Source of the DNA: Allacma fusca
Taxonomy: Eukaryota > Arthropoda > Collembola > Symphypleona > Sminthuridae
DNA length: 64,000 nt
Direction: 5' to 3'
Assembly: GCA_947179485.1 (NCBI GenBank)
Contig: OX359247.1
Span: 53,169,131-53,233,130, forward strand
Shown here: one piece after another, positions 3,801 through 6,149 of the stretch
Position numbering within the stretch: the first letter of the stretch is position 1
Layout of the letters: every line of letters starts with the position of its first letter
Program-made: the position numbers and the translations under genes
Notes under the pieces: generated by a model
Database searches by the model: none
What the model was told of the DNA's origin: nothing
Seen by the model: the letters and a program-made list of their open reading frames with translations, nothing else

Positions 3801-6149
3801 CAACAACAGAACCACCTTCTCTCTCTTCCAGCAGTAACAATCAAGGCAATTCAGTTTTAGATGCTCCTTTACCCTTAGGCAGAAATGGACCTCCCCCCGC
3901 CTACAGTTTCCCTCCCGCTCCCCCCACTTATGCCAATGGCCCTTTTCGGGCCGACTTGTATGCCAATACGTGCGTGAATCCAGCGCCTGTAATTACAGTA
4001 AAACCTGTATATAGTGGTTTCTCTAGGGAACCTAATATTTGACCACTATGTACAGTGACCACTATACTCAGTATAGTGGTCATGTACCACAATATAGGGT
4101 ATATATGTATATTAAATGAATATTTTAACGCGTTTAAGAAGACATCTGGTCGCATTTTTTGTACATAATCATTAATTTTTGACCGTTTAAAAGTTTTCAA
4201 CTTGTGTTGAGCAAGATATTCTGTATAACGATAATTCTATATAGTAATTCTAAATATGGTTTTTGAATAATAGGTGAAATAGTTTCCAACTATCGTAAAA
4301 TTACTTTATTATTGACGCCGGCAGATTCTCCGCAAATATAATTTAAACAAATATAATATTTTTTCTTCCAAGATTCAATACAAACATTGCTTGCTGGCAA
4401 TCCTGCCTACACGAATTTCAATTTGAGATTTTCCAATAATTCTAATATTCTCTATTTTTCGAAATGGAAATCAAAGTGTTTTTGAACTGTGCGTGGTATG
4501 GAGGTATGGTACCGGGAATATGCTTTATTTAAGAAACCGTAATCTAGAATAATCTTAGAAATCTATAGAAATTATGAGCAACGATTTCGTGTGCACATGG
4601 TTTTTAATGCTGACCACTGTATTCAGAGCTCGAAGCATGCATTTCGTTATGAATGGACATAAACCAGGGACCATTATTGACAGGGGACCACTATAGAGAA
4701 AACCACTGTATACAGGGTTAACGTAATGTTAAAACATAGGGCGCATGACGGGGACACACGATATTGGCCACTGTGAACAGGAGACCACTGTATAGGTGGT
4801 CACTATATACAGGTTTTACTGTACAAACCAGGGTGAACCCATATCCCAACGACCATATGCTTTCTCTCCAGCAGTCCTTTCCGATGTAACTCCTTTCACC
4901 CTCCCTAAACCAGTAGATACTTTCGTTCCTTTACCTTTGAATACCCAGAATTCTGGTAATCGCTATGACAAATACAATGGTGTAAATACGCGTTATGATA
5001 AATATGCTCCTTTAGCCGAATCTACGTATGCTCCTGTATCTGAAAATAGTTTTGCTACCACATTTGATGATGACTCTCCAGATCCCTTCGATACTTCGAA
5101 TATCCGAACAACCCCAACCCCGACAGCCTCAAGATATTACTCCACTGTGCCAGGCCTAGACTTGGACCATGATATCAATAAAGCAGCTAATCGTTATGGA
5201 GCTCCGTCGCAAGCATCGGATTTCACATATCCATCTGGCGTACAGCAGCAGTATACGAAAAGTAGTGTCCAATATGGGTATGTTCCCAGAACGTCAGATT
5301 CCTTTATGAATGTCGCAGCTACAAATGGGCCAGAAAACTTTCCGATATCTGCTGCTACTGGAGTTACCGTAGATACAAACTCAACGAGGCAATCTGTTTC
5401 ACCGAGGCCAACATGTTCACCAGAAGTTATTAAGAAAGTCGGTGATGCCTTCAAATGGCTTGATGATACCATGGGAACTTTGAACATTGGCGAAAAAACT
5501 TTGTCTCCGAATCCAGCAAACTTTACCACAAATGGATTTTCCAGTAACAACAGTTCGACTGGTTGGTCAGCGGGTAATCTGGACTCAGGAGATGAGGCTT
5601 GGACGAATCTGGAGGTTAACAATGGAAAAACTTCGGGCGAAAGTTCAACGATTGGTTTCCCAAAATCAGAGCTAGACTTGACCAGTAAGAAGCGTTCGCC
5701 GTATAGTTTGCCCCCGCCACCTGTAATTACCAGGAACAATTTAAAAGTTGGAATTAAGAACCAGGAGCCAGTAGGCAGTGCTAGCAAACAGATGGCAGAG
5801 CAACAAGTTTCGTTACGTGGTTTGGACACTCATCAAAAATTAGTAACAGCATTAGTAAATCAAGTTCCAGCTGCATCAAAAGAAGAAGCTTCCAGAGCAC
5901 TGCAGCTTTCATCTGGCAACTTTCAGACTGCAGAGAGATTGCTCAAAATTGAGCAGCTAGTGAGGTAAGGATTTTCGATGCCTAATCATTTGCTTTTGTA
6001 TGCTCGTATTGTGTTTACGTACTAACACACTTAATTAATATTTCACTTACAGACTAGGCCTTGGAGCGAAATCGAAGTGCGAAAATATTTTGGCGTCAAC
6101 GAATTGGAATTTGGAAGCTGCAGCGTCGATTCTTCTTGACTCAGCATAA
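808..6149 (+). CDS. Ack: Activated Cdc42-associated tyrosine kinase (ACK/TNK2 homologue), exon split by a MITE
   Basis: Cytoplasmic non-receptor tyrosine kinase that acts downstream of Cdc42. Coding exons: 808-1191, 1344-1543, 1628-1737, 1890-2141, 2577-2740, 2884-3343, 3576-3995, 4824-5964, 6053-6149; all junction phases agree and give about 1075 aa, near the usual ACK size. Seen: N-terminal SAM-like helices (residues ~8-70); Gly loop GDGSFG (137-142); VAVK with Lys162; HRDLACRN with Asp256; DFGLMRAL with Asp274; WCAPES; an SH3 domain (~396-450, YYWKGQ...GMFPR); a CRIB motif ([15 protein letters not shown], ~460-474); a Pro/Ser-rich tail; and a C-terminal UBA domain split over the last two exons. 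The start is the ATG at 808, just before the SAM domain. The join 3995/4824 is conceptual: a transposon lies between. Read without splicing, the frame stops at 4042 after 678 aa, losing the distal tail and UBA domain. Confidence 0.93.
1253..1343. repeat. 39-bp tandem repeat (2.3 copies) ending at an ACK splice acceptor
   Basis: The motif GAATGAACGATTTTGTTAAT recurs at 1258 and 1297, and a partial third copy begins at 1336, so the period is exactly 39 bp. The third copy reads GAATGAAG where the others read GAATGAAC. That single C-to-G difference creates the AG used as the 3' splice site of ACK exon 2 at 1342-1343. The repeat is therefore intronic and sets the acceptor position. Confidence 0.85.
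3996..4821. mobile_element. Tc1/mariner (pogo-like) MITE inserted in the ACK coding exon
   Basis: An 826-bp non-autonomous element. Both ends are the same terminal inverted repeat beginning CAGTAAAACCTGTATATAGT (21 bp perfect: 3996-4016 and 4801-4821 inverted), flanked by a TA duplication at 3994-3995 and 4822-4823, which is the Tc1/mariner target. Related subterminal copies lie inside: a perfect palindrome around GACCACTATACT at 4057-4081, and at 4688-4719 an inverted copy that matches the left end further inward than the outer right end does. No transposase frame is present. Protein-coding ACK sequence touches the element on both sides in the same frame (PVIT before, NQGEP after). Confidence 0.92.

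Follow-up and report, generated by a model that had tools for sequence, protein, structure and literature searches.

A young non-autonomous DNA transposon splits the main exon in one of the three near-identical ACK-type kinase genes of Allacma fusca

Non-receptor tyrosine kinases of the ACK/TNK2 type combine a SAM_TNK region, a tyrosine kinase domain, an SH3 domain and a GTPase_binding region in this order, with a UBA at the C-terminus. The gene described here shows the four in the same order and a weak UBA-like end, but in contrast to these kinases it is found in three near-identical copies in one genome, one of which is interrupted by a non-autonomous DNA transposon (MITE). Such elements are known from the pogo/Tigger-like DNA transposons and their MITEs, with which the present one shares a TA target-site duplication (TSD), CAG... 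ends and terminal inverted repeats (TIRs) of about 21-22 bp; it differs in being without transposase, and the related transposase-bearing element that we describe below is a cousin and not its direct source. It is also general knowledge that a redundant duplicate can gather transposon insertions while its paralogues stay intact. The present case is of this kind but unusually recent, with three insertions in a block that is 3 substitutions away from its sister. Finally, some introner families draw donor and acceptor alike from the place of insertion (PMC9860276). Compared with introners, the locus is alike in that a non-autonomous DNA transposon sits in a coding exon with an exonic GT and an exonic AG near its two ends, and unlike in that only 1 of 28 MITE copies lies in a long open frame and the splice signals are weak.

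The interrupted gene and the transposon family

The window, that is the whole stretch of DNA analysed, comprises 64,000 nucleotides of A. fusca (contig OX359247.1, positions 53,169,131 to 53,233,130), and the genome searched amounts to 393 Mb in 91 contigs. The two other copies of the gene lie on contigs referred to here as C9 and C8. The ACK gene copy of the window and its insertion have the following features:

685-6316, + strand: ACK-type kinase gene copy, with borders set by eye on GT-AG and reading frame; 6316 is the end of the block shared with C9 and not a mapped transcript end
685-1191, 1344-1543, 1628-1737 and 1890-2141, + strand: ACK exons 1-4 as listed, by eye
2577-2740, 2884-3343, 3576-5964 (split by the MITE) and 6053-6316, + strand: ACK exons 5-8 as listed, by eye
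3576-5964, + strand: ACK main exon, 1561 nt once the MITE is taken out (joined frame), with the interruption at 3995/3996
3994-3995, no strand: left TA of the TSD (all 28 copies examined are flanked by TA at either end)
3996-4821, + strand: MITE, from its TIRs, TA TSD and family copies
3996-4016, + strand: left TIR, CAGT..., 21 bp (inverted-repeat match)
4801-4821, - strand: right TIR, 21 bp (inverted-repeat match)
4822-4823, no strand: right TA of the TSD (the empty site of C9 and C8 is a single TA)

The insertion is 826 bp long and its terminal 21 bases are perfect inverted repeats (23 counting the TA); with up to three mismatches, the TIR 21-mer occurs twice in the window, whereas 100 shuffles gave a mean of 0.00. 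Its coding capacity is negligible, with only short open runs and 16 in-frame stops in one frame. Perfect TIRs, a TSD of fixed length and the lack of a transposase are the marks of a MITE. Together with one TA the element makes 828 nt, which is divisible by 3, and the main exon that remains after joining the flanks lies within a 535-codon open run that reads PVIT-NQGEP across the joint. The initial annotation had claimed that a MITE marked by a TA duplication and 21-bp TIRs splits the main exon of ACK exactly, and that excision restores the frame through PVIT-NQGEP; the first claim proved right to the base, and the second is borne out by the joined flanks.

The element belongs to a large family. 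In a first search, 40 of 670 candidates were scored, and 28 of these 40 were fetched, the window copy included. All 40 scored candidates are full-length copies, 24 at 96-100% identity (window included) and 16 at 92-93%; the 28 examined copies are 825-855 bp long. Moreover, the genome contains 516 forward and 487 reverse matches to the terminal 23-mer at up to two mismatches, with 0 and 0 for a reversed control. The family is thus one of many near-identical copies of homogeneous length, as is usual for MITEs. Among the 28 examined, the copy nearest to that of the window (L002) differs from it at 1 of 826 bases, and it is because of this near-identity to other copies that we regard the insertion as young. 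At another place in the genome (C1:20910740-20915449), inverted MITE ends stand 4.7 kb apart, which makes it a candidate for either a transposase-bearing source or a nested insertion.

The ends of the MITE resemble those of a pogo-like (DDE_1) transposon. The DDE_1 transposase family has 160 matching places in the genome, and one of these (L056) carries, at its positions 745-3180, a 2436-bp element with TA flanks and 22-bp TIRs (21 of 22 positions matching each other; TIR CAGTGAATTTCCTATATAGTGG). Its left arm equals the left end of the MITE at 16 of 22 positions, and the subterminal motifs TATAGTGG/CCACTATA are common to both. It looks complete and has the DDE_1 match inside, but there is a stop in the transposase frame. 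The TA TSD and the CAG-type TIR shared with a DDE_1-bearing element would place the MITE among the pogo/Tigger-like transposons, by a modest match and on the ends and TSD only. No transposase element with the MITE's own TIR was found in the eight DDE_1 loci scanned (L055-L062) of the 160 matches.

In the protein that the intact C9 copy encodes, the Pfam families SAM_TNK, PK_Tyr_Ser-Thr, SH3_1 and GTPase_binding all score above their curated cut-offs (SH3_1 with a score of 23.7 against a cut-off of 22.9). The order of SAM-like region, tyrosine kinase, SH3 and GTPase-binding region is that of the ACK/TNK2 type. The C-terminal UBA is matched by UBA_4 (E 0.007) and UBA_8 (E 0.0092), both below their curated cut-offs. 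When the MITE is read in place, the predicted ACK product has 678 aa, the last 14 of which are coded by the element, and ends at the stop TGA 4040-4042. Our translation thus agrees with the truncation and the 14-residue transposon-derived tail of the initial annotation. The loss of the UBA domain, which it also announced, holds insofar as the C-terminal part would be cut off; the UBA itself is only a sub-threshold Pfam match.

Three gene copies and the history of the duplicated block

A genome search with the right part of the main exon returned three places, namely the window, C9 and C8, and a search with the GTPase_binding family, in which four candidates were scored, gave three matches, of ACK type. 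The three near-identical copies lie on three contigs and bear introns; a retrocopy origin was rejected, as the ACK copies keep their introns. The C9 and C8 copies are without the MITE, have a single TA at the site and read ...CCTGTAATTACAAACCAGG... as an intact exon. Both keep all introns and every GT-AG border, and each encodes 1075 aa. Their proteins differ at two residues (667 and 705), and their substitutions are 9 synonymous, 2 non-synonymous and 37 non-coding. With its flanks joined, the window copy shows no residue difference from the C9 protein. Thus, ACK coding capacity survives, because the C9 and C8 copies are intact. The choice proposed earlier, between a truncated kinase and a spliced-out element, was correct about the truncated product but not exhaustive, since two intact copies remain.

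The window copy is part of a larger duplicated block, the surroundings of which are as follows:

1-510, no strand: right part of a second transposon, which is 928 bp long, begins 417 bases before window base 0 and lies in ACK intron 1
511-6316, + strand: window part of the duplicated block (2/4978 mismatches to C9 without the MITE; 48/4959 plus gaps to C8)
6784-7778, + strand: RpL32 gene, just downstream of the block edge, borders by eye

The window and C9 have in common a block that starts 4873 bases ahead of the window and ends at 6316, with 0/558, 1/2819 and 2/4978 mismatches, which gives a total of 3 in 8,355 compared bases. One position at which the window copy departs from C9 is 1603, in an intron. 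Three transposon insertions in the window block are absent from C9: the MITE, the 928-bp element and an element of 1079 bp. The 928-bp element has a 12-bp perfect TIR (CAAAGATGGGCC) and an 8-bp TSD (GTTAGGGG), is also absent from C8, and its right part has over 40 matches in the genome. The 1079-bp element lies from 4315 to 3237 bases before the window (L019/L018) and has a 13-bp TIR (TAGGCATGTTCAT) and the TSD GTTCAGAA. A target-site duplication of 8 bp is the rule for hAT-like transposons, and the 8-bp duplications suggest that both elements are hAT-like by structure. The C8 copy is without the MITE and the 928-bp element, and its homology stops short of the 1079-bp element.

All three ACK copies have a putative exon 1, whose strong donor (CACGTAAGT) stands 1011 bases ahead of the window. 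As the C9 homology stops at 511, promoter and exon 1 had seemed to be missing from the window copy; this was wrong, for the 928-bp transposon sits there and the C9 homology resumes to the left of it. So far as this exon 1, which is a guess, can indicate, the window copy does not appear obviously severed from its promoter. In C8, homology begins some 130 bases ahead of the donor of this putative exon, and upstream promoter sequence may be missing from that copy. On the other side of the block, the joined exons of RpL32 match Ribosomal_L32e with 173.9 bits. The upstream/5' region of RpL32 in the window has a 76% match at a further locus (L029, C8:57436482-57436854), and there may be a second RpL32-like locus in the genome.

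Between C9 and C8, differences are 1/716 to the left of the unit, 48/4959 within it and 12/673 just to its right, with 94-96% identity further on. Moreover, these two contigs share a colinear stretch to the right of the block, at 94-99% identity, which the window lacks. Because of this shared right-hand flank, the window copy is most likely a recent daughter of the C9 copy, with C8 as the outgroup. The uneven C9-C8 identity suggests gene conversion, and the polarity is therefore tentative. The opposite order, in which the window copy came first and gave rise to those of C9 and C8, is unlikely but keeps an appreciable chance: the window has the putative exon 1 and the upstream sequence, shared with C9, and conversion between copies could explain the uneven identity. 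It would have to face the kilobases that C8 and C9 share to the right of the block and that are absent in the window, and the fact that the window groups with C9 by substitutions; this argument itself needs the link between ACK and its right flank to be older than the split between window and C9.

As a separate observation, ACK lies within a larger C9/C8 duplication of about 16 kb (L012/L013 and flanks), along which the difference rises from 0.14% on the left to about 5% on the far right. A large gene-capturing mobile element was considered as the carrier of the C9 and C8 copies in view of their shared flanks, and this idea was dropped because by eye the shared region, in which there are several open frames, resembles host DNA of the ordinary kind that has been duplicated.

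Splicing and other readings of the insertion

Next to the preferred explanation, given below, the MITE might be a new intron that is spliced out, most simply with a donor at 3989 and an acceptor at 4832, leaving a protein without V-I-T-N-Q; we regard this as improbable. The sites concerned are:

3989-3990, + strand: best possible exonic donor left of the MITE, CCT/GTAATT, 6/9 to the consensus
4830-4831, + strand: possible exonic acceptor right of the MITE, AAACCAG/GGTGAA, 9/17 pyrimidines

Several observations are in its favor. From 53 GT and 41 AG, 26 in-frame, stop-free donor/acceptor combinations across the MITE are obtained, among which the 3989/4832 splice is predicted to cost merely 15 nt and the 3989/4949 pair 132 nt with a better acceptor, and there is a precedent in families that draw both splice sites from the insertion site (PMC9860276). 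On the other hand, by a donor score that is a simple match count to the consensus CAG/GTAAGT and not a trained splice predictor, the donor at 3989 scores 6 and the GT in the TIR at 3998 scores 4/9, while the gene's own eight donors score 5-8. Of the 69 GT in the uninterrupted exon, eight reach a score of 6 and none exceeds it, so that 3989 is not special and no better than seven others. As to the acceptor at 4832, its pyrimidine count falls below those of all eight native acceptors of the gene (10-14). In addition, the insertion is young, which leaves little time for selection.

The rest of the MITE family argues in the same direction. An open frame of at least 200 codons is interrupted by one of the 28 copies, that of the window, and the other 27 give 27-188 codons, in a test with flanks of about 1.5 kb (the flank of L047 being short) which short exons would escape. 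This speaks against an introner family, which is thus not supported; a family making introns in many coding exons was not found among the 28 copies examined. In-frame splicing through weak exonic sites is thus possible but weakly supported, and it is a long shot that the MITE is an intron in the making which would use the pre-existing sites 3989/4832 to give a near-complete ACK minus five residues. If true, the splicing-out would be caught within a few substitutions' time since the copy arose, with the two element-free paralogues as internal controls; a MITE that is spliced out would amount to an intron gained very recently, for which the genome itself supplies the controls.

An assembly artefact, in which haplotypes or misjoined copies of one locus would pass for two, is very unlikely. 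The window and C9 are indeed as alike as two alleles (3/8,355 bases), but the flanks of the block are wholly different on both sides, and the contigs run to tens of Mb. The window copy is set apart by three separate insertions, all of them with a proper TSD, and the clearly distinct C8 copy is also without the MITE. That an old intron was later invaded or replaced by the MITE is hardly credible: a GT and an AG happen to flank the element closely, but C9 and C8 have a straight exon with one TA at the site, which is why we place the insertion in an exon as the initial annotation had judged simpler, and the GT-AG interval without the element is, as had been estimated, 15 bp.

Fate of the interrupted copy and significance

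The explanation that we hold to be probable is that a young MITE broke one of three near-identical ACK copies, with two intact copies remaining, and that this is the ordinary loss of a spare copy. A cut-and-paste insertion at a TA is shown by the borders, the TSD, the high-copy family and the empty sites in C9 and C8. The window copy would have moved from C9 as a DNA block with its introns, been set beside RpL32, and taken three transposon insertions after the duplication, among them a putatively pogo-like, non-autonomous one in the main exon. If transcribed, it would yield a product of 678 aa that still contains the SAM, kinase, SH3 and GTPase-binding parts, about 410 C-terminal residues being lost. 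An mRNA with a stop well before its last exon junction is as a rule destroyed by nonsense-mediated decay; since 1,922 nt separate the stop from that junction here, this would probably be the fate of the window mRNA. ACK function would be carried by the other two copies, and the insertion is presumably tolerated because these are intact. We infer truncation, decay and redundancy in expression from the sequence.

To conclude, the impression that the animal may lack a full-length ACK is corrected. The locus is a clean, dated case of a transposon in a coding exon, proven by the two paralogues of this genome, in which the site is unoccupied. What is more unusual is that a duplicate this young has received three insertions: transposons of two types or more have entered one block of 8.4 kb that is 3 bases from its sister, which makes it a usable case for the speed at which a redundant copy is invaded.
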